Source: a virus
Length of the DNA: 24,210 bases
IMG/VR virus record: IMGVR_UViG_3300016457_001310
Coordinates: 1-24,210 of that record
Strand: one strand, 5' to 3'
Position numbers and translations under genes: made by a program. Below, one piece after another: positions 2,876 through 19,627 of this stretch (positions within the stretch are counted from its first letter, which is position 1; the number at the start of each line of letters is the position of its first letter). The notes under the pieces are model-generated. The model was given only the letters and a program-made list of their open reading frames with translations, did not search any database and had not been told where the DNA came from.

Positions 2876-4624
2876 TTATATTCGCTTCCTCAGCTCCTCG
2901 TAGGTTGCCCTTATGTATATGAGCGCTAGGTGGAACTGGAGGAAGTGCTCGGGCATTATCAGGTCGCCCGTCATCACAAGCATCGGGTTGCTGACGATGT
3001 CGTAGGCCTCCGAGAGGAGGCTCTCAACCTCTGGTATGCTCTCTCCCGTAGCATCCCTGTACTTGTGGTAGGTATCCCTAACGAACCTGTACAGATGTGC
3101 GCACGCCTCCATCATGTAGTTGACATGCATAGCCCTAACCTCGTCACCGCTCGAAACTGGGCTCAGCTTGGAGAGCACGCTCTCTAGGTCGCTTAGGGAG
3201 CTGGGGTAGGGCTCCGAGGTTATGGAGCTCCACAGCTCCTTGGTACCCTCCTTAACCCTGTGGATCAGGTTCAGCGGATCGTTGAAGTGGCTAGCCCTGA
3301 TAACCTCACCGAGGAGGGGCTTCTCAAGCCTATAGCCGTACACCTCCACGATCCACTTAAGGATCTCGTCTATAGCCCTACCAGCCTCGCGAAGCACCTT
3401 CAGAGGCTCCTTCCTGGTTAGGTACTCTGGAACCACATAGTCCCTCAGGATGGTCACTACCAGCCGCACAATCGATACGCTGTCGAGAGCCGTAGAAGCG
3501 TCTAGAAGGCTCTTCAGAGCGCTACGAGCAACCCTATCAAGAGCCTTAACAGCGTCCGCTACCGTGGAAGCAACAAGCTTGGCTACCCTATCCAGCGACA
3601 GAACCACATCGCTTACCGCTCTCCTAGGCTCCTTCGAGGCTAGGTACTCAGGTACAACAACGTCGAGAACGCTCCTAAGAGTAGACCTAGATACGTAGTC
3701 GCTAGCCACAGTCGCGTCATAAACCCTGAGAGGAATGCCACGACCAACCCAGTCGGTTGCCAACACAGTATCGGGTAACCTAATGGAGGGTTCCTTCGTA
3801 GCCCTATCCAGAGCCCTAGCAACATCGCTCAGGACCTTGCCCCTAACCGTCGATAGCACGTACTCGGGTACAACAGCGTCGTACACGTTCTTAACCAGCG
3901 CCCTAAAGACGCTGTCCCTAGGTATCAACGACTCGCGCCACGCCTTGGTGCTGTGCCTAACCAGGCTATCTATGCCCCTACACGCATCGAGAACCACCAC
4001 CATAGAGGTCTTCGAGAGCGCATCCGTAGCCCTACCGATGTCCCTAACCAGCTTCGCACCCTCCTTCGATAGCCTATCAAGCAACACCCCCGCATCCACC
4101 AGCGTGCGGACGAAGAAGGCTGAAACCCTAGCGAGATCTGTTAGCTTCAGAGAATCCGCCACCACCTTAGCGCTCAGCCTGCTCAGAGCATCCACAGCCC
4201 TGCCACTATCCGCTAGGGATCTCCTGAAGTGAACAGCCCTCGACACGGAGTCTACAACACTCGTCGCCTCCCTACCCACCTTCAGGGGCGCCTTGACGAG
4301 CATATCGGCTACCGCACCAGAATCCACAAACGCGCGCACGAAGTGTGCAGACACGGAGAATCCGTCTCTGCTGGTCACCGACTCGCGTACCGAGCCAGCA
4401 ACCAGCTTCGACAACGCATCGAGAATCTTAACGCCATCGAAGAGCACCTTGGATCTGTATGCTATTAAAGCATACTCGGGGATTGCATAGTCGTAGACAG
4501 CTACTGACCCCACCTTCGCAACAACGTCGCTCGCTAGAACAGTATCCGATACCTCCACGCAATAAGTAACCCCTACTAACGTGAATAGAGGTCTCTGAGC
4601 TGGTAACGCGCTGGTGAAGCTCAT
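2876..4624 (-). CDS. Protein with about 22 tandem 17-20 residue repeats
   Basis: This 582-residue protein has residues ~22-405 made of roughly 22 short degenerate repeats. The unit is about (R/K)-x-(L/V)-x-D-x5-(L)D-x-(V/L)-(S/A)-(R/K), for example LADSGRAVDALSR, LVDAGVLLDRLSK and VSDVVLSLDRVAK. A second repeat type ends in VPEY (YDAVVPEYV, LDVVVPEYL, LRDYVVPEYL) and recurs every four to eight units. Residues ~410-582 form a helical C-terminal domain without repeats. There is no signal peptide. Such regular repeats suggest an elongated fibre or scaffold, and its place among fibre-like genes fits a surface appendage, but I do not recognise the family. The ATG start has only a weak ribosome-binding site. 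Confidence 0.85.
   Translation of the reverse strand: MSFTSALPAQRPLFTLVGVTYCVEVSDTVLASDVVAKVGSVAVYDYAIPEYALIAYRSKVLFDGVKILDALSKLVAGSVRESVTSRDGFSVSAHFVRAFVDSGAVADMLVKAPLKVGREATSVVDSVSRAVHFRRSLADSGRAVDALSRLSAKVVADSLKLTDLARVSAFFVRTLVDAGVLLDRLSKEGAKLVRDIGRATDALSKTSMVVVLDACRGIDSLVRHSTKAWRESLIPRDSVFRALVKNVYDAVVPEYVLSTVRGKVLSDVARALDRATKEPSIRLPDTVLATDWVGRGIPLRVYDATVASDYVSRSTLRSVLDVVVPEYLASKEPRRAVSDVVLSLDRVAKLVASTVADAVKALDRVARSALKSLLDASTALDSVSIVRLVVTILRDYVVPEYLTRKEPLKVLREAGRAIDEILKWIVEVYGYRLEKPLLGEVIRASHFNDPLNLIHRVKEGTKELWSSITSEPYPSSLSDLESVLSKLSPVSSGDEVRAMHVNYMMEACAHLYRFVRDTYHKYRDATGESIPEVESLLSEAYDIVSNPMLVMTGDLIMPEHFLQFHLALIYIRATYEELRKRI
3405..4560 (-). repeat. Degenerate ~55-bp coding tandem repeats
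   Basis: This is the DNA behind the ~22 protein repeats of the 582-residue gene. Units are 51-60 bp and diverged, with recurring blocks reading DALSR/DRVAK and VPEYL when translated on the minus strand. Boundaries are approximate. Confidence 0.7.
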
Positions 4625-5084: not shown

Positions 5085-5453
5085 CTAGATCTCCTCAAGC
5101 ACTTGAACGACGAACCAGTAGGGGAAGCTTCTGAGTGTGCCCTGTGTCTGGGTTATCGTAACCCTGGGCTGGGCATCCTTTGGAAGCGTCATCGAGAGCA
5201 GGTGCACAACGGGGTTATCGAGAGGCCCGTCAACCGCTATGGTATCCAGCTTCCTCCTGTTAGACCCGTCGACAGCTATGTAGATAACCAGCTTCACCGA
5301 GTCACCGCTCTGGAGCTGCGATAGATCTACGTAGCCCTCCAGGATTATCGCGTTCTCGTATGTCCCGAGGTTGATCAGATCGGTCTCCACGTTCAGATCG
5401 CTGGGCGTTACGGTGCCTCGGTACTCCTCCTTACGCTTTATCCTGACTACCAT
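5085..5453 (-). CDS. Beta-rich small protein, paralogue B of 191-559
   Basis: This 122-residue protein has the same length and layout as 191-559: a basic N-terminus, (S/T)PSDLN, EGYVDLSQL, IAVDG and the identical RVTITQTQGTLRSFPY block. Outside these blocks many positions differ, so the duplication is old except for the 49-bp identical segment. It lies 12 bases after the tail-fibre-like gene 5466-6017 and is followed at once by a membrane protein, whereas paralogue A sits next to small membrane genes at the other end of the cassette. A beta-sandwich virion component is the best guess. Any role as an interchangeable fibre cap or adaptor is speculation. Confidence 0.85.
   Translation of the reverse strand: MVVRIKRKEEYRGTVTPSDLNVETDLINLGTYENAIILEGYVDLSQLQSGDSVKLVIYIAVDGSNRRKLDTIAVDGPLDNPVVHLLSMTLPKDAQPRVTITQTQGTLRSFPYWFVVQVLEEI
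5118..5166. repeat. 49-bp direct repeat, copy 2
   Basis: Identical to 224-272 in the same orientation. The two copies bracket about 4.9 kb of fibre-like and small membrane genes, so recombination between them would delete or exchange that block while leaving an intact hybrid 122-residue gene. Confidence 0.9.
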
Positions 5454-6247: not shown

Positions 6248-7369
6248 CTAGTCGGATACTATCTCCACCAGCCTCAGAGCTATGATATCCCATCTATACT
6301 CCTTCGAGAGCACCTTCTCTCTCCATTCCCGTACCCTCGCCTTGTACTCGTCTAGGTTATCCAGGATTACGTGCAACTTGTTGAGAGCGTCCTCGACATC
6401 GACAGCGTAGCCGTAGCCACCGTGAAAGGCGTTTCCTGGTAGGGGCTGAACCCTCCTACCCTTCTTGACCCACAGGAACGGGGGTACGTACTCAGACCAC
6501 GAACCGTACTCGCATGCGAGCACTGGCACACCCCTAGCAAGCGATTCTAGAGCAACCATCTCGAAGCCACCGCCTCGGCTGAACATCAGGGTTACGTCAG
6601 CCATATCGAAGAGCGCCATCTTCTCGTAGTCGCTCAGCCACTCGTATACCTGAAGTGCGCCGTACTGCATGACCTGCTGGTACTCGGGTATGTTGGGGAA
6701 CACCGTCTTCAGGACCAGAGCAACATCCTTCCTCTCCCTAGCAAGCCTGGTATACACCTCGTACACCTCTGGCCAGCCCTTCCTCTCACCGCTGTGGACA
6801 AGGAAGAACAGTATGAACTTCTTGTTCCTCCTCATCTTATAGAGGTAGAGCTGCACAAGCGATGAGCTGAGCCTCTGCCTCGGCGCGATCTCCCATACAT
6901 TGGGTGTTGTATACCACTCAGGGTCGACACCGTGCGGAAGCCTGTAGACCCTAGCCCTCACCCCAGACCTCCTAGCCACCTCCACACAGAAGCTGGAGGG
7001 CACGACGAACTTGTCGAACCTGTTAGCTATGGAGACCGCGTAGTCGGTATACGCATCGGAGTCGCAGACATCTATACCTATGAGCTGGTCGTAGAAGCCC
7101 CTCCACCACTGGTAGTAGTCCTCCCTAAACCTACCCCATATATCCTTCCTGCTCTCAAGAACCCTAAACATGATGAAGAAGCCTGGGTGTAGAATCAGGG
7201 AGTACTTGGTCGATGGCGTGAACGCTGGTACCATAAGCTCGTCGAGCTCGTACACCGACACATACCCAAGCCTCCTCATATACTCCAGATGCTTCCTCGC
7301 CACCAGCGTGAAGCTGACGGTGTGCCACTGAGGATAGGCATAGAGTATCGGCTTCAAGACTAGCCCCAC
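6248..7369 (-). CDS. GT4-type glycosyltransferase
   Basis: This 373-residue protein has a GT-B layout. The N-terminal Rossmann-like half includes a VVPSSFCVEVARRSGV segment (~122-137) and LPHGVDPEWY (~144-153), typical of GT4 enzymes just before the linker. The C-terminal half includes FLVHSGERKGWPEV (~189-202) and FSRGGGFEMVALESLARGVP (263-282), the nucleotide-sugar binding block. The usual first Glu of the E-x7-E motif is replaced by Gly (G267), while the second (E275) remains; such GGGF variants occur in some GT4 proteins. It would transfer a sugar from an activated donor to a virion protein, lipid or host glycan. The GTG at 7369 is the annotated start; a TTG four codons later with a better ribosome-binding site is an alternative. 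Confidence 0.85.
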   Translation of the reverse strand: MGLVLKPILYAYPQWHTVSFTLVARKHLEYMRRLGYVSVYELDELMVPAFTPSTKYSLILHPGFFIMFRVLESRKDIWGRFREDYYQWWRGFYDQLIGIDVCDSDAYTDYAVSIANRFDKFVVPSSFCVEVARRSGVRARVYRLPHGVDPEWYTTPNVWEIAPRQRLSSSLVQLYLYKMRRNKKFILFFLVHSGERKGWPEVYEVYTRLARERKDVALVLKTVFPNIPEYQQVMQYGALQVYEWLSDYEKMALFDMADVTLMFSRGGGFEMVALESLARGVPVLACEYGSWSEYVPPFLWVKKGRRVQPLPGNAFHGGYGYAVDVEDALNKLHVILDNLDEYKARVREWREKVLSKEYRWDIIALRLVEIVSD

Positions 7370-7413: not shown

Positions 7414-8127
7414 CTAATGCTGTACCAAGCCAAGCGCCTTCACTACCCAGTAAACGACCTCAGATGCCCCCCTAGGCGGCTCGTCAAAGTTGGTGATAGC
7501 CGTGGCGTCCCTAATGTGGTAGAGCGCGGGTATAGGAGTGTCCCTAACATCGCTCGTAAAGCCGTGGTCTGACACCACCAGCCACCGCCTAGGCTTGAAC
7601 GTCTCTATCAGGTCGAGAGCCAGCTTGCATGCCAGGTCGTACCACTCTATCGCTGTTCTAAGCGCGTCTATGCTTGGTATGGTGGAGAAGAAGTGGTGAT
7701 GAGGCTGATCGGGTACGGGGTACCAAACGAAGAGGATATCCGCATCCCCGTTAGCCTTTACGTAGCTGTGGTACTTCATCAACACCTCCCTAAACCGCTC
7801 CTTAGGCGGCGAGAAGAAGTCCACCCAGTTAGCAGGCCTCGGAACGCCGTGGTATATCGGTGGCATGCATGCTGGTATATTGATAGCCTTTACCCTCCTA
7901 CCCGTAACGAGATCCCATACCCAGGTCGTTATGGTTCCAGGAACGAACTTCCTTAGCTGGAAGAAGGTTGCCATAACCGTGGGGGTCTCTGGAATCACAT
8001 CGACGTACATCATGCAGCGCTTAGCCCCTGGATAGCTCCAGAGCCTACGTATACTCTCTCCCCACCAACAAAACACATTTGCAAAGACGTAGCTGAGACC
8101 GTCTAGCACCACCACCAGGACATCCAT
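7414..8127 (-). CDS. Alkaline-phosphatase-superfamily phosphodiesterase-like
   Basis: This 237-residue protein begins with VLVVVLDGL (metal-binding Asp9), followed by PETPTVMATFF (candidate nucleophile Thr48 or Thr50). It then has PDQPHHHFF (Asp140 with His143-145) and VVSDHGF (Asp187, His188), with a later His204. This order is that of the type I phosphodiesterase/nucleotide pyrophosphatase branch of the superfamily, which uses two metals to cut phosphate esters. It is shorter than many cellular members, so it is probably a compact catalytic core. It sits between a membrane coiled-coil protein and a glycosyltransferase, which suggests glycan or lipid-headgroup processing. The substrate cannot be read from sequence. 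No signal peptide is seen, so it probably works in the cytoplasm. Confidence 0.75.
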   Translation of the reverse strand: MDVLVVVLDGLSYVFANVFCWWGESIRRLWSYPGAKRCMMYVDVIPETPTVMATFFQLRKFVPGTITTWVWDLVTGRRVKAINIPACMPPIYHGVPRPANWVDFFSPPKERFREVLMKYHSYVKANGDADILFVWYPVPDQPHHHFFSTIPSIDALRTAIEWYDLACKLALDLIETFKPRRWLVVSDHGFTSDVRDTPIPALYHIRDATAITNFDEPPRGASEVVYWVVKALGLVQH

Positions 8128-8131
8128 GGTA

Positions 8132-8425
8132 TCACGTCGGAGGCGCCCAGTGCACGCCTAGAATAGCCGCCACGAAGCTGAGGACTATGACCATAACCGT
8201 TATCATCGCGCCGACAAGAAACTTTATCAAGCCGTTGCGTCTCTCGACAAGCTTGTTTATGAGCCGCTTTATCTCGCTGACATCGTTCTCGATGTTATCG
8301 ACTCGTTGCTCTACCCGTGCTAATCTCTCGCGCATATCCATTACCATGAGCATCAGCTCCCTTATTTCCTGGTTGGGTACGGGATCATTTGAAGCCCCAT
8401 ACTGCGAAGTTCCCTCCCTCGACAT
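8132..8425 (-). CDS. XhlA/holin-like coiled coil with C-terminal membrane helix
   Basis: This 97-residue protein has a polar N-terminus, a heptad-rich coiled coil at about 27-62 (MRERLARVEQRVDNIENDVS), a basic stretch (KLVERRNGLIKF) and one membrane helix at about 70-91 (VGAMITVMVIVLSFVAAILG). This matches the layout of haemolysin XhlA-type phage proteins, where the helix anchors in the membrane and the coil oligomerises. In an archaeal virus it may act at the cell membrane during release or anchor virion parts. The ATG at 8425 lies inside the 3' end of the methyltransferase gene (41-base overlap), with GGGGTGG upstream. A later Met (near 8350) would give a shorter protein that keeps the coil and helix. 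Confidence 0.8.
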   Translation of the reverse strand: MSREGTSQYGASNDPVPNQEIRELMLMVMDMRERLARVEQRVDNIENDVSEIKRLINKLVERRNGLIKFLVGAMITVMVIVLSFVAAILGVHWAPPT

Positions 8426-8945
8426 AGCCCACCCCCCGAAAACCTATCCACTCAAGCAAGCGCTTTAGGGTTTTCGGATGAAGTACATGGAAATGCGTCT
8501 CGTCGCTGAGAGCCGTGGGGTCTGAGCACGTAACAGATTGTATCCACACAGCGCCCCCAGGCTTCAGAACGCGGTACACCTCGGTAAGCGCCTTCACGTA
8601 GTCAACGATGTGCTCAAGAACCTCTATCATGATAACGACATCGAAGCGGTTCGCAGGGAACTCCAGAGCCTCGGCATTCATGATCAGGTGCGGGTAGTCC
8701 TTCCTCCGATCTGGGGGCTCCACGATGTCTATACCCCAGTAGTTCCAAGAGTACTGGGGTCTCGGAAAGTTCTCGTGTAGCCAACCCACGAGAAAGCCCT
8801 TGAAGCAACCCACCTCCAGGATATCGAGGTGCCCGCGCTCCTTGAAGAGCCTCTCTAGGAACTCCTTAAGCTCCTTGCGCCTAACCAGTAGGAAGCCCCA
8901 GTAGTGCTTCTTGCCAGCCTCGATCATCGCGCTCTTCAGCTCCAT
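8385..8945 (-). CDS. SAM-dependent class I methyltransferase
   Basis: This Rossmann-fold methyltransferase of about 186 residues has motif I LDILEVGCFKGFL (~40-52), an acidic end of strand 2 in YWGIDIVEPP (~69-78), FDVVIMIEVLEHI (~101-113) and RVLKPGG (~125-131), plus DETHFHVLHPKTL (~148-160). These are the hallmarks of the Methyltransf_11 type small-molecule or glycan methyltransferases. The ATG at 8945 is preferred over the GTG at 8951 because of the AGGGTG ribosome-binding site. It lies next to the XhlA-like and phosphodiesterase genes and near a glycosyltransferase, so it may methylate a sugar or other virion modification. Rudiviruses and lipothrixviruses also carry methyltransferases. 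The target is unknown. Confidence 0.88.
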   Translation of the reverse strand: MELKSAMIEAGKKHYWGFLLVRRKELKEFLERLFKERGHLDILEVGCFKGFLVGWLHENFPRPQYSWNYWGIDIVEPPDRRKDYPHLIMNAEALEFPANRFDVVIMIEVLEHIVDYVKALTEVYRVLKPGGAVWIQSVTCSDPTALSDETHFHVLHPKTLKRLLEWIGFRGVGYVEGGNFAVWGFK

Positions 8946-8947
8946 GG

Positions 8948-9349
8948 TCACACCCTAGCAATGATCCACCAGTTGCCGTCCCGATCCGCTACCAGGATAA
9001 CCGCCTCACCGAACGATGCTAGCTCTATAGACGACGAGTTCTCGACGTACTTGCCGCTGGGCGGCGCTATCGTTACGGTGTTCGTCGAGGTATCGATCTT
9101 CTTAACTATGACCGTCACACCGTTGGCTACGGATGGTAACGTGATCGTTACTGACCCCCCAGACGCATCTACGAGGACAAGCTCGTAGGGGTTGGCGGTG
9201 TAGTTAGCCGTAACCTTAACTATCTTGGATATCCTGACCGCTACCGAAGCCATGTCGTAGAGCTCGTTGAGAGCATCAACAACCGAGTTAGCCCATGTTG
9301 ACGATGCTCTCTGGAGCGGCTTCACGTATAGATTATCGTACTTACCCAT
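8948..9349 (-). CDS. Tail-fibre-type beta-repeat structural protein
   Basis: This 133-residue protein has an N-terminal helical segment (QRASSTWANSVVDALNELYD, ~13-32). A compact beta domain follows with VTANYTANPYELVLVDASGG, VTITLP, VTVIVKKIDTSTNTVTIAPP and AVILVADRDGNWWII. This pattern (a strand-rich unit with GGxVTITLP, IKKID and a closing NWWII) is common in the fibres and structural proteins of tailed phages. It is therefore likely a virion surface protein. It overlaps the methyltransferase start region and follows the 448-residue gene by seven bases, with GAGGCG before the ATG. Confidence 0.82.
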   Translation of the reverse strand: MGKYDNLYVKPLQRASSTWANSVVDALNELYDMASVAVRISKIVKVTANYTANPYELVLVDASGGSVTITLPSVANGVTVIVKKIDTSTNTVTIAPPSGKYVENSSSIELASFGEAVILVADRDGNWWIIARV

Positions 9350-9356
9350 AGACGCC

Positions 9357-10703
9357 TCACCCCAGACCCCTCTTCCTCAGGAACCTGGTTCTCTCTCTGA
9401 ACCTAAGAGAGGAGAAGGTTCTTAGATGGGTTCTGACAGCGTTGTACAGCTTCTCAAGCACGCTCCTATCCAAGCCGCTTGAGCTCCACTTGTCTAGCCA
9501 CCAGCTCTTCAGCTCGTCCTCGGACATGGTTCTGAGAGCGCCGTCTCCCCATCTATGCGGAGACGCCATGATCGCGAAGAGCTGTAGAACAGCGGACTTG
9601 TACATCCTCATGGTTACTGGGTCTACCGAGCCAAGCATGTTCCTAACCGTGTTGTAAACAACCCTCTCAAGGAACATCCTCTGCGATACTGGCAGAGCAA
9701 AGGTCTCGACACGCTCGCTAGCCGTCCACTGAGTCCTCTCCTCGTATGTCTGGTAGTTAGCCACAGCAAGGGCTGTAGCATGTATCCTGTTAACGAAGTT
9801 GCGCCACACAGCATCCACCAGCATCGTGACGATCGGTGGCGTGAGCTTGTACGGATGCACAACATCGCACCAGTGGAAGTAGTCCCATGGATACTCGTCC
9901 CAGTAGCCACACGCCTGGAAGTCTATCAGGTCCTCGTACTCGACCTCAACCTCCTGCAAGTCGTAGTTTATGTACGTAACCCTACCCGCGCTACCCTCCT
10001 TAGCCCACAGAGAGAAGTCCCACCATCCGTAGTCCCATGTAAGGGCCTGCTCCTTGACCGAGAAGATCGCTACCAGCCTATTGAAGAGGTTCCTAGCGAG
10101 CTCTGGGTTCATATTCAGGTTCCTAGCGATAGCTTCTACCCTATCCCTAGCCGTCCTCACGTCACCCCTCTTCTTTAGGAAGGCGAACAGCGTCGATTTG
10201 AAGAACTCCCTAACGGCTATCGGGTCGTAGTAGGAGTACCCATACCTAGAGATATCGTAGTAACCCTTCTCGGTTACGGAGGGCTTAAGGGCCTCCGCGA
10301 ACGGCGACTCCATGAACGCCTCCATGAAGTCGACCACGCTGTAGACCGACTTGATCATAATGTCCTCGAACTGCGGGTAGAGCTCCGCTATAACGTCGTC
10401 GATGCTTACCCTCTCAAGCTTTATCAGGACTCCCTTAGCGAACTCCTCGGGTGACGGAAGTTCGACACTCCATAACAGGTTCCATGGCTCTACCTCGCTT
10501 ATCGGTATACCCAGAAGAAAGAGGGATACAAGGGTAGAGAGAAGGGTGTCGCTCACTACCTGATCCGAGTAGTCCCTAAGCCAGTCAAAAATATTGAAAG
10601 ACTGGCTATAGACAGACCACGCTGCATCGTCCGACAGCGCCTTGTACCAGTACTTGCGCTTCTGATCCAGTAGCTTCCACGCCTCCCTGCTCAGAGCACC
10701 CAC
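9357..10703 (-). CDS. Unknown 448-residue protein, probable virion component
   Basis: This is a long soluble, helix-rich protein with unusually many aromatic residues, especially in the middle (WDYGWWDFSLW ~226-236, GYWDEYPWDYFHW ~268-280). The C-terminus is strongly basic (RTHLRTFSSLRFRERTRF and RKRGLG). No signal peptide or convincing membrane helix is seen. I do not recognise the family. Its place directly after the giant repeat protein and the coiled-coil protein, and before a fibre-like gene, suggests a minor structural protein. In rudiviruses several large minor virion proteins follow the largest one. The start is a GTG two bases after the upstream stop, with GGTAG upstream. Confidence 0.8.
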   Translation of the reverse strand: MGALSREAWKLLDQKRKYWYKALSDDAAWSVYSQSFNIFDWLRDYSDQVVSDTLLSTLVSLFLLGIPISEVEPWNLLWSVELPSPEEFAKGVLIKLERVSIDDVIAELYPQFEDIMIKSVYSVVDFMEAFMESPFAEALKPSVTEKGYYDISRYGYSYYDPIAVREFFKSTLFAFLKKRGDVRTARDRVEAIARNLNMNPELARNLFNRLVAIFSVKEQALTWDYGWWDFSLWAKEGSAGRVTYINYDLQEVEVEYEDLIDFQACGYWDEYPWDYFHWCDVVHPYKLTPPIVTMLVDAVWRNFVNRIHATALAVANYQTYEERTQWTASERVETFALPVSQRMFLERVVYNTVRNMLGSVDPVTMRMYKSAVLQLFAIMASPHRWGDGALRTMSEDELKSWWLDKWSSSGLDRSVLEKLYNAVRTHLRTFSSLRFRERTRFLRKRGLG

Positions 10704-10705
10704 AG

Positions 10706-10885
10706 CTACCTACCCCTTCGACCACCACGAATGGTCTCCTCAATGCGCTTCCTAACCTCCTCGAACTCCTTCCTAGCCTTCTCTATCCTCTCGTTCAGCT
10801 CCCTAACGCTCTTAGCCAGCTCCTCTATCCTCTTCCTGAGCTCGGGATCCACCTCGAAGCCCAGGTCGGTGCTGGGGCTAGACAT
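10706..10885 (-). CDS. Small coiled-coil protein
   Basis: About 59 residues. After a short polar N-terminus (MSSPSTDLGFEVDPELRKR) almost the whole chain is a charged helix with heptads (LAKSVRELNERIEKARKEFE), ending in a basic GGRRGR tail. It probably forms a dimeric or trimeric coiled coil. The ATG at 10885 is chosen because GGGGAGGG precedes it; a further ATG at 10900 is possible. It lies between the giant protein and the 448-residue protein with a few bases on each side, so it may be an assembly partner or chaperone for one of them. That is inference. Confidence 0.75.
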   Translation of the reverse strand: MSSPSTDLGFEVDPELRKRIEELAKSVRELNERIEKARKEFEEVRKRIEETIRGGRRGR

Positions 10886-10909
10886 GCGCCCTCCCCGCAT
10901 TACCTATCT

Positions 10910-13900
10910 CTACCTACCGTATATTGTCTGTATGCGTTTCTTCTCAAGCTCCGCACCGTCAACTATCAGCGCTATCTCATCATCGGTGAGACCGTACTTC
11001 TTGAGAGCCTGTAGCTTCTGTATCAGGGTGTTCCTATCTATGATACCGTTGGCGTAGGCGTAGACCAGCCTGTTGCGGTACCACGCTATCTGCCTCCACA
11101 CGATGCGGTTCCTAGCCAGCTTCTTGTAGTACTCTATCTGCTTCTGGTACCTCGCTACGTCTATACCCCTAGCTCTGAGCACATCGCTGAGGATCTGCTC
11201 CCACTCTGGTATGTACCTGGCATCGGCTACGAGCTGGCGGATGGTCGGTACCAGCCAGCTAAGCACCCTGTACTCCTTGCGTAGCTGGAGAGCGAGGCTG
11301 AACACCTCAAGCTCCTTCCCGACCCAGCCGCCCTTCCTCATCCACTCAGCTACCTTGCTAGCGACCTCGCGAGACACCGTGAAGTACTCGTAGAGCCTCC
11401 TGTACTCAGCAACGAGCTGGTTCACCTCGCCCGCTATAGACCTAGCCTCTATGTACCTCAGCCACAGATCGGCAAAGTCCTTGGGAACCCTCCTAAGCTG
11501 TAGCACCCTATCGATTATGGTTCTGGGCACCTCGATGTACTCGACCATGGACGCTATGGTTCCTAGGCTAGGTACGTACTCCCTAGCGGACTCTATGAGT
11601 AGCTCGTAGTATACGCGCTTCTCGATCAGCTCTATCTCCTTCGGGGTGAAGCCGTAGCTCTTAGCGTCGTCGAGGAGCTTCTTCCACTCATCCTCAGAGA
11701 TAACACCGTACCTGAGAGCCCTAGCAGCAACGCTTAGAACCGCCTTGTAGTCGCTCTTAACTGGCCTCACCTGTATGTATTTCAGCCATATATCTATCCA
11801 CTCCTGTGGAACCCTCCTAGCCTCAAGCACCTTCCTAATCAGATCCTCCTTGAGCACGAGATACTCAGCCAGCGTTGCGAGCATCGTCGGTGTCGGTAGG
11901 TAGGCTCTCCTAAGCTCCATAGCCTCGGCAATCTCCTCCTCCAGATCCACGCGCTCCTTGATGAACTCGATCTCCTTGGATGTGAAGCCGTACTGACCGA
12001 GCTTATCTATGAACTCCTCCAGCTCCTTCTTGGTGATAACACCGTACCTGAGAGCCCTTATCTTGACCGAGAGCAACGACTTGACATCGCTCTTAATAGG
12101 CTTAGCCTCTATGTACTTCTTCCAGTAGTCTATCCACTCATCGGCTACCCTATGGTACTTCAGAGCGCTCAGAACCTTGTCCTCGGGCAAGACAATGTAC
12201 TCAGCAAGTGTTGCGAGCTGCGACGGTGTTGGAATCCTAACCTTAGCCTCCTCCAGCTTCTCCTCCAAGTCTATCCTATCCCTAAGTATCTTGATCTCCT
12301 CGTCGGTGAAGCCGTACTCCTTAGCCTTATCGATTATCTCGTCAAGCCTCTTCTTCTCTATGACGTTACGTAGGTAGGCACGGATAGCCACAGATATGTA
12401 CGCCTTGTAGTCGCTCTTCAGCGGCTTTACCTCTATATACTTCTCCCATATCTCCCTCCACTTCTCGGATACGCCATACCTCTTCAGAGCCTCCTCAACG
12501 AGATCCTTGGGTAGCGCTAGGTACTCGGCTAGAACCGCCAGCGTCGATGGAGACGGAATCCTCTCCCTAGCCGCCTGCCTAAGCTCGTCTATCCTCCTCT
12601 CGAAGGCGGCTATAACGTTGTACATCACCCACTCATGAGGCGCTATACCGAACGCCTGGAACACGTCCCTGTTAGCGTCGTAGAACGCAAGCAGCTTCTT
12701 AGCCTCGTCAGCACCCTCGATAACCAGCTCACCGCCCCTCACGGTGAACTTCATAGAGTACTTACTGAGTATATCCACGACCTCGTCGATGCCCATACCC
12801 AGAGCAAGCGCGTTGTATATCCTGGTCCTGAGAAGCGTCAGCTCGTCCTGTATCGGCTTCCTAGCAACGTAGAGCCTCCAGTACTGAAGCTCGTCGCTCG
12901 GCATGTTGAAGTGCTCCAAAGCCTTCAGGCTCGTGCTGATGGCTTCGGGCACGATCTCTAGGAGGGTCGCGTAGGTTGTTAGACCAGGCGTGTACCAGAC
13001 CACGTTGGCGTCTATATACTTCTTGGCGAGATCCTCGGAGAAGCCCAGCTTCTTGAGTTGCTCGATAGCCTCCGAGACGGCTATCCTCCTCGATCTGAGC
13101 AGGTTGATGATCGCCTTAGCCTTGACCTCCCTCTCGAACCTATAGACCATGAACTCCACGGAGAGCTCTATCGCCTCCCTAACGATGGGGTGCTCATGCA
13201 TCTTCTCCACTAGCTTGGATACCCAGCCCTTGGCCTCGTCAATCGTTACATAGCCGTAGCGCAGAGCCCATAACACCGACCACAGCAGGTACCTAGCGTA
13301 GAACCTCGTGCGCTCCCTAGCCTCAAGCTCTATGATCGCCTCGGCATACTTGCTCCAGGCCTCCCAGTAGCCAGTATCTAGCACTAGGGACAGCTCCTTG
13401 CCAGTGAGGCTCTTTACCGTCTGCTTGAAGAACTTCTCGTTTATCGCGCTGACAATATCGGCAATGATCTCCCTAGCCTTGGCTGGATCCACCACGTAGT
13501 AGGCTACGCTGCGTATGATGTACCTATACGCCTCTCTGTAGATATCGAGAGCCCTATCCATAGTTGCCCTGATCTCCAGGAGCTTGGACTCGGCTGGTAG
13601 GAACGCTATCGGGTACTCAACGGTTGCCGATACCCAGTCCCTCTTCTCTAGGTCGAAGTAGCCTACCTCGAACTTAACCGTGAAGAAACCCGAGAGTAGC
13701 TGGTGTAGGTGGTCTAGGCTCCATATACCCTCCTTGTATAGGTTGATGAAGCCAGTTCTGAGCAGTGTGCGCTCCTCGGTTAGGGCGTTTATTGTCTCGG
13801 CTATCGCTACCCACGGTATCCAGTACGGGTGTATACCCGTAGCCTGCAACACCCTACAGAACTGCTTGAGGTCGAAGACTATCTCACCCTTCTTCAGGTA

Positions 13901-16900
13901 CTGGAGGTAGAGATCCGCCATCGGTCTAGCCGACGCAGTGGTGCCCTCGGGTATGAGACTCTTGGTTATCTCGTGGATAGCCTTCTTCAGACCGATGCCG
14001 TATGCAGACCAGTAGTCGAAGAGGCCCCACCTTGTCATCCATCTCAGGTCTATCTTGGTGGGTATGTCAGCCATAAGCTCGATCATTATGGCGTTATCGG
14101 TTGGCCACCCAGGTTGCCACGGAAACCTGGCATAGTCATGCCACTTCATGTAGGTGCTGATCATCTTTTGCAACAAATCATATCTGAAGTTCAGCTCCTT
14201 GGGAGCCACAGCCTTCACAACCGTTGGGTCTAGACCGAAGGTCTTCATTATGTTCTCGTCGACTGGTGCCTCAGGGTTCCACAGCTCACCAGCGATACCC
14301 CTCCAGAAGAACTCTGCTAGCTTCTCTGGCGGTGGGTACCTGTAGTGCAGTAAGTAGAACATGAACGCCACGTCTGGCGTGAAGCCGTGCATAGCCATAA
14401 CTGCCGCAAAGTGCCTTGGATCCTGTATGATGTCCCTCACCATCATCCTAGCTAGCTCGCTCGGGCTCGGTATTGCCCACACCATCGATACTGGGAAGAG
14501 CCTCTCCTTCCTGGTGTATGACGTAAACCTATCCCATATCCTCAGAGCCCCCAGCTCCCTATCGTAGAGCTCGGATACATTGCCGAGTTGCTTAGCGACC
14601 TCCTCAGCGAGCTTGGTATTGAGACCATAGATCCTCTCTATAAAGCCCTTGTAGATACCACCCATCCTGAGCTGGTCTACAAACATCTTGTAGTTGTCCA
14701 TGAGTATCGGTGTCGGTATAGACCTCCTAACCAAGTTGAGAGTGTGCTCCATTGGTGGAAGCTCGACGGTTACGTACTCGGTCAGGTTGTACCTAGTGAT
14801 TGCCCTGGTTGGCTCGGCCCACCATATCATGTGGCCTATGATCATGTACCTCGCTACGTCTGGCATGAACTTCTCGAACTGCGAAACAGCCTTCTCAAGA
14901 ACGTCCTTCAGCTTCAGTCTTATCCTAGCACCGACACCGAGTGGCTCACCACTTATCTCGGTATCTGGTAACGCAGATACCAAGGGCTTCAGTATGAGGC
15001 CAACACCGTAGATGGCGGCCGATATCAGCACGCCAACGTTGAGCAGGTTGTATATGAACCTCACGGGGTTCTTCTTGGCCTCCTCTATCACCTCGCCGAG
15101 CTTCTCGACCATTATCGGTGTGAGCGGTAGTAGTATAGCCTCGATTATGGGGAACCATGGAGACGCAAGTATCTCGTAGAGCGCTGGGCTAGACCTAGCC
15201 ACTATCAGGTTGGTTATAGCCTTCATAGCGTTGCCGATAGCTGTAGCGATATCCTTACCGACCTCTCCAATAACCGAGATAACAGTCATTACAGCTCTGC
15301 CTACCCACGAAGCAAGCGTCTTAAATGCCGAGACAAACCAGTTACCGAGTCCCGTCAGGATGTTCCATAGCCACTGCGCACCCTCGACGATCTTCTGTCC
15401 GATCCACTGTAGAGAGTTCCAAACTGTCGTTACTAGCCTCTCTGGTAGCTGCATAACCGCGTTCACGAAGCCAGTGAGGTAGACACCCACCAGCTTCAGG
15501 TTCTCAGACACCTTGGTAAGAGCCTCGCCTAGCTTCGCGAAGCCCTCGCTTACCAGCGTTCCGAGCTTGGTCAGGTAGTCCCACAGTGATATGCCTACCT
15601 CTCTAAGCGTCCCGAAGACGATCTGCGGAATCCTCTGGATCTCCTCAACAACACCGCTTACCAGCGACGGGAACTGCTCGGTGAAGAACCTAGCCACCGT
15701 CTCCAGTCCGCTCCTAACCATGTCTAGGAACTGGGTGAACGCCTCGGTAATGGGCTTCACAACGTTCTCGCTGATCCACGTGCCTAGACCAGCTACCGCC
15801 TCCTTTACCTGGTCTACGAGGCTCGGAAGCGTCTCGGCTATGAAGCTCCTAACGGTCTCGAACCCCTCGGAGATGAAGCCGATCAGGTTCTCAAGAGCGC
15901 CCCTAAGCGGGGCGAGCACGTTGCTCTGGATGAAGCTCCATATACCCGCTAGGGCGCTCTGGATCTGGCTAACCATGCTAGCGATAGCCGACGATACGCT
16001 TCCGAGACCCTGCTGAACCGCTGATAGGATGCTCTGCACAGCCGATGTTAGAGGCGCGATAACGTTCTGCTGGATCCACGAAGCGATCCCCGCAACAGCA
16101 TCGCGGAGCTGAGCAACGAAACTATTGATGTAGCTCGGCAACTCCTCGGTGAAGAACCTAGATACGGTCTGTAGACCGCTGTTGATGAAGTCTATGAAGC
16201 TCTGGAAAGCCGCTGTTAGGGGTGCTACAACGTTCTCCTGTACCCAGGTAGCTATTCCAGATAGCGTCTGCTGTATAGACGCAATAGCCTGGCTTACGAA
16301 TGCTGGTAGCTCCTCGGTGAAGAACCTGGAGACCGTCTCCAGACCGCTACTAATTAGCTGTATCAACTGGCTAAACGCGTTGCTCAGCGGTGCAACAACG
16401 TTCTCCTGGATCCAGGTGGCTAGCTCACCAACAGCTTGCTGAACCATCGCTGGTATCTGCGACACAAAGCTCGTCACGGTGTCGAGACCGCGTGTAATCG
16501 TCTCTATCAGGTTATTTACAGCGGTTAGCAGGGGTGTGACCACATAGTCGTTTATCAGCGTGCTGATGTCGCTTATCCATTTCTGGAGCTCCGCAAACAT
16601 CTGCGGAACGGTCTCGGTGAAGAACGTCGTTAGCGTCGATATGCCCTGGCTGATCCAGCTCATCAGGTTGTTAATAGCGCTGAACAGCGGGTCGATTATG
16701 TCCTCCTGTATCCAGCTCCATACACCGCTTATCTGGCGACTTAGCCAATCCAGAGCGTTCTCAACCGTGCCTGGTATCTGCTGTAGGAAGCTCCACACCT
16801 GCTCAACGAGGTTCTTGATCGTGTCGAGGAACGGCTTAGCTACCGTGTCCCAGAGCCTGCGACCTATCTCCTCGACCGTCTGAGCAAACCAGGAGGCGAG

Positions 16901-17140
16901 CTCGCTCATACGGTCGTAGAGCCACTGCTGTAGCTGTCCAATCGGGTCGGTGATGCCGTGCTCCGAGGTAACGAGAGCCTCTAGATCGAGCTCCTCTAGA
17001 TCCCTGATAACCGTTACGGTGAAGACCTCCTCGATACCCTTGCTCCACCTAAGCTCCCATAGACCAGCCGCGCTGAGAGTAGCCGCTAGGTACTTAGCGT
17101 CCTCGGCGGTGAAGAGCTCCAGCCTCTGATGGCTGGTCAC
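10910..17140 (-). CDS. Giant tape-measure-like repeat virion protein
   Basis: This is by far the largest gene, about 2,076 residues. Residues ~140-500 carry seven amphipathic repeats of 47-57 residues centred on W(I/V)QENVVAPL and SGLETVSRFFTEELP. Residues ~660-760 contain two hydrophobic stretches (WFPIIEAILLPLTPIM and VLISAAIYGVGLILKPL). The middle holds helical segments such as PSELARMMVRDII and GFTPDVAFMFYLLHYRYPPP. From about residue 1530 to the end run five ~108-residue repeats starting (I/L)P(T/S)P..LA.LAEY and ending in YGFT..EI. The layout recalls tape-measure or large minor virion proteins, and rudiviruses encode a ~1,070-residue structural protein. The start is GTG 17140 with GGGTG upstream; an upstream TTG at 17158 would precede the likely transcript start. 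Confidence 0.85.
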   Translation of the reverse strand: MTSHQRLELFTAEDAKYLAATLSAAGLWELRWSKGIEEVFTVTVIRDLEELDLEALVTSEHGITDPIGQLQQWLYDRMSELASWFAQTVEEIGRRLWDTVAKPFLDTIKNLVEQVWSFLQQIPGTVENALDWLSRQISGVWSWIQEDIIDPLFSAINNLMSWISQGISTLTTFFTETVPQMFAELQKWISDISTLINDYVVTPLLTAVNNLIETITRGLDTVTSFVSQIPAMVQQAVGELATWIQENVVAPLSNAFSQLIQLISSGLETVSRFFTEELPAFVSQAIASIQQTLSGIATWVQENVVAPLTAAFQSFIDFINSGLQTVSRFFTEELPSYINSFVAQLRDAVAGIASWIQQNVIAPLTSAVQSILSAVQQGLGSVSSAIASMVSQIQSALAGIWSFIQSNVLAPLRGALENLIGFISEGFETVRSFIAETLPSLVDQVKEAVAGLGTWISENVVKPITEAFTQFLDMVRSGLETVARFFTEQFPSLVSGVVEEIQRIPQIVFGTLREVGISLWDYLTKLGTLVSEGFAKLGEALTKVSENLKLVGVYLTGFVNAVMQLPERLVTTVWNSLQWIGQKIVEGAQWLWNILTGLGNWFVSAFKTLASWVGRAVMTVISVIGEVGKDIATAIGNAMKAITNLIVARSSPALYEILASPWFPIIEAILLPLTPIMVEKLGEVIEEAKKNPVRFIYNLLNVGVLISAAIYGVGLILKPLVSALPDTEISGEPLGVGARIRLKLKDVLEKAVSQFEKFMPDVARYMIIGHMIWWAEPTRAITRYNLTEYVTVELPPMEHTLNLVRRSIPTPILMDNYKMFVDQLRMGGIYKGFIERIYGLNTKLAEEVAKQLGNVSELYDRELGALRIWDRFTSYTRKERLFPVSMVWAIPSPSELARMMVRDIIQDPRHFAAVMAMHGFTPDVAFMFYLLHYRYPPPEKLAEFFWRGIAGELWNPEAPVDENIMKTFGLDPTVVKAVAPKELNFRYDLLQKMISTYMKWHDYARFPWQPGWPTDNAIMIELMADIPTKIDLRWMTRWGLFDYWSAYGIGLKKAIHEITKSLIPEGTTASARPMADLYLQYLKKGEIVFDLKQFCRVLQATGIHPYWIPWVAIAETINALTEERTLLRTGFINLYKEGIWSLDHLHQLLSGFFTVKFEVGYFDLEKRDWVSATVEYPIAFLPAESKLLEIRATMDRALDIYREAYRYIIRSVAYYVVDPAKAREIIADIVSAINEKFFKQTVKSLTGKELSLVLDTGYWEAWSKYAEAIIELEARERTRFYARYLLWSVLWALRYGYVTIDEAKGWVSKLVEKMHEHPIVREAIELSVEFMVYRFEREVKAKAIINLLRSRRIAVSEAIEQLKKLGFSEDLAKKYIDANVVWYTPGLTTYATLLEIVPEAISTSLKALEHFNMPSDELQYWRLYVARKPIQDELTLLRTRIYNALALGMGIDEVVDILSKYSMKFTVRGGELVIEGADEAKKLLAFYDANRDVFQAFGIAPHEWVMYNVIAAFERRIDELRQAARERIPSPSTLAVLAEYLALPKDLVEEALKRYGVSEKWREIWEKYIEVKPLKSDYKAYISVAIRAYLRNVIEKKRLDEIIDKAKEYGFTDEEIKILRDRIDLEEKLEEAKVRIPTPSQLATLAEYIVLPEDKVLSALKYHRVADEWIDYWKKYIEAKPIKSDVKSLLSVKIRALRYGVITKKELEEFIDKLGQYGFTSKEIEFIKERVDLEEEIAEAMELRRAYLPTPTMLATLAEYLVLKEDLIRKVLEARRVPQEWIDIWLKYIQVRPVKSDYKAVLSVAARALRYGVISEDEWKKLLDDAKSYGFTPKEIELIEKRVYYELLIESAREYVPSLGTIASMVEYIEVPRTIIDRVLQLRRVPKDFADLWLRYIEARSIAGEVNQLVAEYRRLYEYFTVSREVASKVAEWMRKGGWVGKELEVFSLALQLRKEYRVLSWLVPTIRQLVADARYIPEWEQILSDVLRARGIDVARYQKQIEYYKKLARNRIVWRQIAWYRNRLVYAYANGIIDRNTLIQKLQALKKYGLTDDEIALIVDGAELEKKRIQTIYGR
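10920..12570 (-). repeat. Five ~325-bp coding repeats, C-terminal part of giant gene
   Basis: Repeat starts lie near 12560, 12235, 11905, 11578 and 11255, a spacing of about 325 bp (~108 residues). Each unit begins with a P(T/S)(P/L).TLA.LAEY-like block, has a D.W..YI.(A/V)(K/R)P block, and in all but the fourth unit ends in a YG(F/L)T..EI helix. The first three are closest; the last two are more diverged. Confidence 0.8.
15620..16745 (-). repeat. Seven ~140-170-bp coding repeats, N-terminal part of giant gene
   Basis: Successive units carry W(I/V)(Q/S)(E/Q)NV(V/I)(A/K)P near 16712, 16550, 16412, 16247, 16076, 15938 and 15776. The third, fourth and seventh are most alike, including the SRFFTEELP/ARFFTEQFP block. 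Long amphipathic helices of this kind suggest a coiled or lipid-facing rod. Confidence 0.75.
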
Positions 17141-17173
17141 AGCTACACCCGAGAACAAGTTGATAATATGGAA

Positions 17174-17203: not shown

Positions 17204-17470
17204 TCACTCTATCCGCTTGTATATATCGTGCTTCCCGCTCATGATAATGAACTTCATCTTCGCTATCTCGGCACGGAGCTTGGCCTTCAGCTCAGCGTTG
17301 CTCTCAACATCAAGCGTAAAGATTGGGGATCTAAAACCGTTCCACTCAACGAAAACCGTTACCAAAAAACGCTTCTGCTTGTTGACCCACTCATGCTTGG
17401 TTATCTCAAGTATATAGACCTTCGCACCATCGAGCTCGACCAGGACAGGGGGAACGACTACCCTTGTCAT
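17204..17470 (-). CDS. Unknown 88-residue protein
   Basis: This small soluble protein has beta-like segments in its first two thirds (TRVVVPPVLVELDGAKVYIL, RFLVTVFVEWNGF) and a basic helix (AELKAKLRAEIAKMKFIIM). It overlaps the upstream gene by four bases (ATGA), so translation is coupled. It immediately precedes the giant structural gene. No family was recognised; in phage-like gene orders, small proteins before a tape measure are often assembly chaperones, but that comparison is only positional. Confidence 0.75.
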   Translation of the reverse strand: MTRVVVPPVLVELDGAKVYILEITKHEWVNKQKRFLVTVFVEWNGFRSPIFTLDVESNAELKAKLRAEIAKMKFIIMSGKHDIYKRIE

Positions 17471-17742
17471 CTCCTAGCCCTTCTCTTTATGATCTTGTAG
17501 AAGTGCCACGTCGCTCTAACCACGCTCCTAGCCGCATCCACGAGCTCCTTGAGCTCTGGGTACCTATCCACGAGCTCGTTGGGTAACAGCGCTACGACGT
17601 AGCTCAGCTCCTGAGCCGACATTATGAGGTTGTTCATCGCATCTAGAAGCTCCTTCTGCTCGGGTGTCAGCTCCACGTCTTGCGCTGGTAGCTGGGTCTG
17701 AGCCTGAACCTGGGGAGCGCTAGGTGCGCGGGTCTCGGACAC
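17467..17742 (-). CDS. Unknown 91-residue helical protein
   Basis: The N-terminal ~25 residues are Ala/Pro/Gln-rich and probably disordered (APSAPQVQAQTQLPAQ). The rest is predicted helical (TPEQKELLDAMNNLIMSAQE, ELKELVDAARSVVRATWHF) and ends in a strongly basic tail (KIIKRRARR). The start is a GTG four bases after the stop of the glycosyltransferase gene, and the stop overlaps the next ATG. It is a soluble protein of unknown function. The basic tail could bind nucleic acid or an acidic partner. It lies in the capsid-to-giant-protein interval, which favours a structural or assembly role. Confidence 0.75.
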   Translation of the reverse strand: MSETRAPSAPQVQAQTQLPAQDVELTPEQKELLDAMNNLIMSAQELSYVVALLPNELVDRYPELKELVDAARSVVRATWHFYKIIKRRARR

Positions 17743-18869: not shown

Positions 18870-19244
18870 TTAGTACGGTGGTACGGCTCCTATGAGTGCC
18901 TCTATGATCCTGTCGAGCACTGCTGGATCGCACTTGTAGGCCGTTACGAAGTAGCTCTTGATGCCGCTAACCTCCTTCTGGAGTGTTAGACCGCTGTGGC
19001 TGAACATTGTCTTAGCTACTATCTGCGCGAAGGCTAGATAGGGAGCCCATAGACCAGTTGGCACACCCTCTTCGCTCAGGATGTTCCTAGCTACCTCCAC
19101 AGCGTTGTATATGGCGGCAGTAGCGCTCTCGAACCTAGCCTCCATAATGGGCTTGACAGCCGTCAGCCTGTTGGTCACGTTGGTACCGTCGTACTTAGCC
19201 TCGTACTTGGCTCTCATATCACCTAATCTCTTAACGATGGGCAT
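18870..19244 (-). CDS. Major capsid protein paralogue (SIRV-type fold)
   Basis: This 124-residue helical protein resembles rod-shaped virus capsid proteins. It has a basic, aromatic N-terminal arm (RLGDMRAKYEAKY), then ARNILSEEGVPTGLWAPYLA (like the ...YGI.GPSRAIYQGYG block of SIRV2) and KEVSGIKSYFVTAYKCDPAV (like AGLKAYYVSAYGANPE). A final helix ends in ALIG. It shares the MPIVK start and the same block order with the 118-residue protein just upstream, so the two are paralogues and may form a heterodimer that wraps A-form DNA, as in lipothrixviruses. A GGGGTGAGATCCC leader precedes the ATG, 26 bases after the other gene. The family call is by motif comparison from memory. Confidence 0.8.
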   Translation of the reverse strand: MPIVKRLGDMRAKYEAKYDGTNVTNRLTAVKPIMEARFESATAAIYNAVEVARNILSEEGVPTGLWAPYLAFAQIVAKTMFSHSGLTLQKEVSGIKSYFVTAYKCDPAVLDRIIEALIGAVPPY

Positions 19245-19270: not shown

Positions 19271-19627
19271 TTATCCAACTATCAGGTTCGCGATCTTGTC
19301 TAGTATAGCGGGGTCGGCACCCTTAGCAACGAACCACTGCTTGAGACCGCTGGCAATCGCTTGCAGGTCAGCACCCTCGTGGCTCAGAGCCTTGCTTGCT
19401 AGCTTCATCGCGAACGCGTAGTAGACACCGTGGAACCCTGCTGGAACACCCTCGCTCTCAAGTATGTTCCTAACGCGCTCCCTGACAGCCGCCATCACGC
19501 CGCTGCCCTCGATGTACCTAGTCACAGCGATGTCCTTTACCGCACCGTATCTAGTACCTGTCTGATCTGGTGGTGTCTTTGCCTTGAACTTCTCTACTCG
19601 GTCTGCAAGGGTCTTGACTATGGGCAT
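19271..19627 (-). CDS. Major capsid protein paralogue (SIRV-type fold)
   Basis: 118 residues and first gene of the leftward operon. After MPIVKTLADRVEKFKAK it has VRNILESEGVPAGFHGVYYA and IASGLKQWFVAKGADPAILD, ending NLIVG. The order and spacing match the C-terminal helical core of SIRV-like capsid proteins (VAGLKAYYVSAYG, then NPEILD and NIILG). It also pairs with the 124-residue paralogue downstream. The N-terminal part is rich in Lys/Arg, suitable for DNA contact. It has a strong setup for high expression: a TATA box ~40 bases upstream, GAGGTAG before the ATG, and its position as first gene. In lipothrixviruses two such proteins alternate along the filament; the same here is inference. Confidence 0.82.
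   Translation of the reverse strand: MPIVKTLADRVEKFKAKTPPDQTGTRYGAVKDIAVTRYIEGSGVMAAVRERVRNILESEGVPAGFHGVYYAFAMKLASKALSHEGADLQAIASGLKQWFVAKGADPAILDKIANLIVG

Follow-up and report, generated by a model that had tools for sequence, protein, structure and literature searches.

A giant relative of the rudivirus P1070 protein is a probable terminal-fiber component of a rod-shaped archaeal virus

The window analyzed here, meaning the whole of a 24,210-base virus record from IMG/VR (IMGVR_UViG_3300016457_001310), encodes a giant protein on its minus strand. Profile comparisons place this protein, as an enlarged member, in the rudivirus P1070 family of minor structural or tail fiber proteins, and we infer that it probably builds the terminal attachment fibers or the tip complex of a rod-shaped adnavirus. 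The original prediction, made from the sequence alone, had described an open reading frame (ORF) of about 2,080 residues; this length holds, and the upstream end that it gave is an in-frame GTG at codon 7 (2,076 codons). The protein is organized as follows:

10910..17158, minus strand: giant protein assigned to the P1070 family, 2,082 codons from a TTG, with an alternative GTG start at 17140
14969..16981, minus strand: amphipathic hendecad array of the N-terminal part (residues about 60-730) with repeats of 48, 52 and 56 residues, tape-measure-like in either reading direction
14972..15046, minus strand: hydrophobic helix (residues about 705-729) ahead of the beta hairpin, Kyte-Doolittle (KD) hydropathy 2.21, helical in the structure model
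14879..14971, minus strand: anchor motif LPDTEISGEPLGVGARIRLKL... (residues 730-760), a predicted beta hairpin whose P1070 counterpart is LPEIEIDLAPVGLGGK
13229..14488, minus strand: most conserved domain (residues about 891-1310), 36-78% identical to eight relatives
14126..14152, minus strand: motif YMKWHDYAR (residues 1003-1011), the site of an intein insertion in the relative L051
11579..12568, minus strand: C-terminal helical repeats in three clear copies of 108/112 residues (residues about 1531-1860)
10913..11578, minus strand: diverged and partial repeats up to the C-terminus, ending in KKYGLTDDEIALI (residues about 1861-2082), with the strongest P1070 match

The case for P1070 kinship comes from several profile comparisons. 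The family phrog_7334, to which the N-terminus of SSRV1 P1115 belongs (1.7e-63), matched the giant protein in nine stretches at 8.3e-58, and a hidden Markov model (HMM) that we built from ten rudivirus P1070 proteins matched it at 1.4e-62, collinearly at the N-terminal array, the anchor and the C-terminus. A profile-profile comparison of eight giant proteins (those of the relatives described below included, except for the intein-bearing L051) with fourteen rudivirus-type proteins gave 99.8% and 1.3e-28 over 872 columns. The original prediction had suggested a link to P1070 proteins, and with it a terminal structure or adhesin, and both the P1070 HMM and the profile-profile comparison bear this out. 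When segments of the window protein were compared with the P1070 profile (E-values computed for one sequence), residues 1380-2082 matched at 1.1e-38, residues 700-800 at 4.7e-8 and residues 760-1380 at 8.7e-7, and none of the three matched when reversed or shuffled. Because the reversed segments fail to match, the C-terminus, anchor and middle carry directional homology to P1070. Residues 60-730, in contrast, matched at 7.3e-27 forward and still at 3.4e-19 when reversed, so the array is inseparable from its mirror image by this measure. Overall, homology to P1070 is strong in the C-terminal part, clear around the beta-hairpin anchor and weak in the region between. An HMM of the 48-residue repeat of P1070 gave a modest match (1.2e-7 for the whole protein), which suggests that this repeat and that of the window protein are of one type. 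The P1070 HMM also gave weak matches in proteins of AFV2, SIFV and AFV9 (1.5e-8 to 0.006). These matches had no reversed control, and we do not count the proteins as homologs.

In addition to profile homology along its length, the giant protein shares with the rudivirus family (SIRV2 ORF1070, SSRV1 ORF23-1115 and SRV ORF1059; phrog_7334) its gene setting and the order of its elements, namely an N-terminal amphipathic hendecad array, a beta-hairpin anchor, helical repeats and an end of the KKYGLTDEEI type, as far as low-confidence structure models allow the order to be read. The model of ARV2 P1115 and that of window residues 700-1760 both show helix, short beta hairpin and long helix in equal order at the anchor. 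Beyond the anchor the P1115 model consists of a regular 48-residue repeat of a long and a short helix, and the window C-terminal repeats are helical within the folded part (residues 700-1760). When the ARV2 model was searched with Foldseek against BFVD, the P1070 homolog of SMR1 was the only match at E <= 0.001. The two proteins also differ: the giant is about twice as long, its array spans about 660 residues as opposed to 170-180 in rudiviruses, and it has additional near-identical 108/112-residue C-terminal repeats and the YMKWHDYAR middle domain, for which a tblastn search of the phage collection with the L049 segment found nothing. Named family members measure about 1,060-1,150 residues, a size range that is not a functional criterion, and the full-length P1070 ORFs from 26 viral loci, the named rudiviruses and their close relatives span 1,023-1,152 codons from stop to stop (33 of 39 rows, the other six being fragments and some rows representing one virus twice). 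We class the 2,082-codon protein as an enlarged P1070 variant because it exceeds this range.

Repeats dominate both ends of the protein. Within the N-terminal array, where the original prediction had seen amphipathic repeats of about 50 residues, the top 50-residue self-match scored 173, as opposed to at most 39 in 20 shuffles; repeat offsets were commonly 48, 52, 56, 104 and 156, and helix-like peaks occurred at 7, 11, 22 and 33. The array is about 50% hydrophobic and resembles a very long amphipathic helix. Hydrophobic stretches had likewise been predicted, and the most hydrophobic 19-mer (mean KD 2.21) lies at residue 705, directly preceding the conserved beta-hairpin motif. At the C-terminus the top 60-residue self-match was 193 (at most 35 in 20 shuffles), with autocorrelation peaks at 108 (z 14) and 112 (z 10). 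The predicted C-terminal repeats of about 108 residues are therefore real, but a count of five is on the high side. Three clear copies follow one another at about 1531-1640, 1641-1752 and 1753-1860, after which come one diverged copy (from about 1854) and one partial copy (about 2018-2082). An older relic of the repeat lies near residues 1384-1490.

The giant protein is not alone in its size. Peptide patterns of the window protein by themselves found no relatives among viral contigs; a profile that included the rudivirus proteins found the 26 viral loci mentioned above. In the genome collection, two of 192 candidate stretches proved to be giants, both from Guaymas metagenome-assembled genomes (MAGs): L044, in a Thermoprotei MAG, encodes at least 2,033 residues that are 56% identical to the window protein, its contig ending inside the giant gene, and L045, in an Archaeoglobales MAG, encodes 1,858 residues. 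MAG binning is not proof of host, and the adnavirus-type contig L045 either may have been misbinned or may come from a filamentous virus that infects Archaeoglobales. A profile of these two and the window protein identified six more giants among 22 stretches in IMG/VR viral contigs, with stop-to-stop lengths of 1,442 (L046), 1,541 (L047), at least 1,423 (L048), 1,226 (L049), 1,427 (L050) and 2,046 codons (L051, intein included). All eight relatives have a coat gene and an 88-residue gene near the giant gene, as in the window, and seven of eight have the 448-residue P488-like neighbor described below, the L044 contig ending within the giant gene; most of these rows helped to build the profiles, L050 being new to those of the 88- and 448-residue proteins. 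The relatives differ from the window in length (1,226 to at least 2,033), in partly rearranged gene order and in the L051 intein.

Conservation among the giants is uneven. Domain 891-1310 is the best conserved part and the N-terminal array the worst, at 17-37% identity to the eight relatives. Between the window protein and its nearest relative, L044, the array is 37% identical with 120 gapped columns and the middle 78% identical without gaps; the array holds the largest difference within this pair, and the two are one C-terminal repeat unit apart in the alignment. Such a pattern fits reach or valency changing rapidly. In L051, the most conserved motif is split at YMKWHDYxRx|S by an intein of 368 residues (L051:12253-13356; Intein_splicing 8.7e-11, LAGLIDADG_3 2.2e-15), which leaves an extein of 1,678. 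Inteins tend to sit at strongly conserved sites. The host of this LAGLIDADG endonuclease intein is presumably a structural protein, and the virus a filamentous one of archaea.

The original prediction considered a protein of this size to be without precedent in its group. This stands relative to the 33 full-length rudivirus-type ORFs, but not for the wider family, which includes uncharacterized relatives with lengths from 1,226 to at least 2,033 residues. The family itself is known, and our literature search, in which supplementary files were not covered, found neither a P1070-type protein this large nor this group of relatives in print. PMC10848311 reports a large P1070 homolog in Chiyouvirus_18, an adnavirus of Bathyarchaeia, a likeness drawn by description only. 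Deep-sea adnaviruses have also been described (PMC9894754 and PMC12934983), and because their genomes stand outside our comparison, the giant relatives may belong to families already described.

The window virus itself is a filament of the SIRV type (Adnaviria), in agreement with the original prediction. Two small ORFs upstream of the giant gene match the rudivirus-type coat domain:

18870..19244, minus strand: major coat protein paralog (Sulf_coat_C 1.1e-12)
19271..19627, minus strand: major coat protein paralog (Sulf_coat_C 9.1e-12)

When these coats are combined with three coat proteins of rudiviruses, the resulting profile retrieves solved structures of rudivirus coats, in part by construction since rudivirus rows are inside it. 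A tblastn search of the phage collection with the coat protein at 19271-19627 returned nothing at E <= 0.01, and a coat-protein tree with two of 16 inner branches well supported was not used for placement. The record also encodes a Holliday-junction resolvase (2.2e-21). The original prediction was to fall if portal, HK97 capsid or terminase genes turned up; none of PF04860, PF05065 and PF03237 was found in a search of the whole record, which may be a fragment, and a Pfam scan of 28 likely window genes (the 64-residue ORF at 10706-10900 left out) revealed no tailed-virus hallmark. Among the six related viral records, all carry the coat family and none matched PF03237 or PF05065, the two tailed-virus families searched there, portal not being among them.

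A role at the virion tip follows what has been proposed for its homologs. SIRV2 carries three end fibers that bind host pili and act as anti-receptors (PMC4456609), ORF1070 is named as the most plausible tail-fiber candidate (PMC7911016), and terminal filaments are believed to be made up of a P1070 homolog (PMC10848311). We suspect that the N-terminal hendecad array of the giant forms a long coiled shaft that is probably multimeric, or else a comparable bundle of amphipathic helices, and that the hydrophobic helix and hairpin serve as a joint or membrane-touching element. The 891-1310 domain and the C-terminal helical repeats would then provide docking to the virion end, receptor binding or both. 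Duplication may quickly alter the array and the number of repeats, and with them reach or valency, against a constant middle domain. Several points weigh against this assignment. The middle region matches P1070 weakly, and homology of the N-terminal array to the P1070 N-terminus appears inseparable from shared physics because the array matches in both directions. Both structure models are of low confidence (mean predicted local distance difference test score 58.7 for ARV2 P1115 and 52.9 for the window segment; predicted template modeling score 0.26 and 0.40), and Foldseek found no solved fold in the PDB for either at E <= 0.001. Finally, the fiber role of P1070 is itself described as likely rather than proven in PMC7911016 and PMC10848311, and the location of the giant relatives in the virion is likewise inferred.

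An alternative is that the giant acts as a pilot or membrane-channel protein, its array being released at entry to insert into the host membrane and pass the DNA without measuring anything. Such a role has been proposed for tape measures, and the very long, half-hydrophobic amphipathic helix adjoining a hydrophobic helix would suit it. SIRV2 virions are also reported to come apart at the cell surface on entry (PMC4456609). We nevertheless regard this as unlikely, given that the strength of the hydrophobic helix varies, the most hydrophobic 19-mer lying elsewhere in four of nine giants (L047, L048, L049 and L051). Similarly, an internal or end-cap scaffold that organizes the ends of the A-form DNA would account for the strong conservation of the middle domain and for the intein at its most conserved motif, both of which suggest constraint by other virion parts; since the literature favors placing P1070 at the fibers (PMC10848311 and PMC7911016), we consider a scaffold in place of an external fiber quite improbable.

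The original prediction had likened the giant to tape measures, and this reading is largely refuted. At first sight the evidence for a true tape measure, which would span and set the length of a tube or virion and be homologous to siphophage tape measures, looks substantial: among the best 25 of 56 matching tape-measure families, the matches cover residues about 60-675, lie within the array only and reach 5.9e-19, the N-terminus of rudivirus P1115 also matches phage tape measures (3e-5), and a profile of P1070 plus the window protein matches solved tape measures (gp57 2e-8). The reversed array, however, matches the same families equally well or better (1.1e-21), and the shuffled array gives no match, for which reason we reject tape-measure homology. 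A hydrophobic period of 11/3, or 3.67, marks hendecads. The window array has a period of 3.70, and a hendecad period is present in all nine giants (3.64-3.70) and all three rudivirus proteins tested (3.64-3.66), with spectral power several-fold over shuffles. Two phage tape-measure segments, paired by tblastn with P1115 or the window protein, have a nearly equal period of 3.62-3.64. The tape-measure likeness is one of helix geometry. The Pfam family Baculo_PEP_C, which matched in the array above the cut-off (1.6e-12) and in SSRV1 P1115 below it (1.2e-5), is taken as the same amphipathic pattern, a judgment made without a reversed control.

Nor is the protein a suitable ruler for the virion. 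As a single full helix the chain would measure 312 nm, compared with at least about 615 nm for a virion whose length is estimated, not measured, by scaling from SIRV2 (about 900 nm, PMC7911016; 35,450 bases). Furthermore, protein length does not rise in proportion to genome or contig size as that of a tape measure would (Spearman -0.27, p 0.30, n=16, leaving out L044, L045 and L048 for a short contig or cut gene, and with the sizes of six viral contigs as lower bounds). Because of the short chain and the missing length correlation, the giant fails as a virion ruler. It thus resembles the tape measures of Caudoviricetes in having long amphipathic helices whose period is about 3.6, but differs from them in lacking directional homology, in belonging to a virus without a tail and portal, HK97 capsid or terminase genes in the window, and in its unfit length; a true tape measure is highly improbable. 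More generally, tape-measure annotations made by profile search can come from helix periodicity alone and deserve caution. It is just as hard to credit a cell-surface or secreted adhesin outside the virion, which an array so large, repetitive and quick to change, together with the varying number of repeats, might suggest, as P1070 homologs are annotated as structural in SRV and SMR1 and the giant gene sits among coat, P488-like and glycosyltransferase genes.

The surroundings of the giant gene also match those of P1070:

17204..17470, minus strand: conserved gene of 88 residues immediately upstream of the giant, with homologs adjoining the giant gene in eight of eight relatives
17467..17742, minus strand: 91-residue upstream gene, conserved in the close relatives L044, L046 and L048
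17747..18793, minus strand: glycosyltransferase, GT4-like (PF00534 1.4e-14; SSRV1 1.5e-36), corresponding to the glycosyltransferase that SSRV1 has next to its coat gene
9357..10703, minus strand: 448-residue neighbor, P488-family homolog by a seven-member HMM against rudiviruses
8385..8951, minus strand: downstream methyltransferase (PF13489 1.2e-19), in the same relative place as in SSRV1, MRV1 and ARV3
6248..7369, minus strand: second glycosyltransferase (ARV1 1.2e-49, SSRV1 1.8e-49), closely similar to the one that rudiviruses carry downstream of their methyltransferase

The HMM of the 448-residue neighbor matched SSRV1 (1.7e-11), SMR1 (3.8e-10), SBRV1 (7.2e-8), SIRV2 (1.3e-7) and SRV (3e-5), and the P488 family is annotated as structural in SRV and SMR1. 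In SSRV1, MRV1 and ARV3 the coat gene is followed by a glycosyltransferase gene and, further on, by P1070, one more gene and a methyltransferase gene, with another glycosyltransferase gene some way beyond. The window retains this arrangement, with the coat, glycosyltransferase, P488-like and methyltransferase genes that characterize the P1070 neighborhood.

Other genes of the window drew our attention as well, all on the minus strand. The 582-residue repetitive ORF at 2876-4624, whose homologs vary strongly in size (739 residues in L049 and 1,201 in L047), is possibly a second fiber-like protein. Paralogous 122-residue ORFs at 191-559 and 5085-5453 share a 55-base stretch that is 96% identical 4.9 kb apart, with a homolog in L047. 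The 183-residue ORF at 5466-6017 matches the phage tail-fiber and virion families phrog_5417 (2.4e-18) and phrog_4176 (1.7e-14) even though the virus is filamentous, and a type I phosphodiesterase/nucleotide pyrophosphatase-like gene (7414-8127; PF01663 3.6e-6, above the cut-off) lies between those for the methyltransferase and a glycosyltransferase.

One possibility, though a doubtful one, is that the hendecad array at the N-terminus acts as a ruler that measures terminal fibers and not the virion, at about 0.15 nm of shaft per residue. Rudivirus arrays of about 170-180 residues would then give 25-27 nm, similar to the roughly 28 nm of SIRV fibers. If this idea is correct, the window virus and its relatives would bear fibers of about 50-110 nm, a length adjusted through the duplication of repeats. 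Whatever the outcome, our analysis ties an unexplained giant gene to the one virion protein named as a pilus-binding candidate in rod-shaped archaeal viruses, and shows that the P1070 family reaches twice its known size in uncharacterized relatives, including two from MAGs of deep-sea hydrothermal origin. The resulting size series, with arrays of about 170 to about 750 residues, allows the composition and length control of terminal fibers to be tested.

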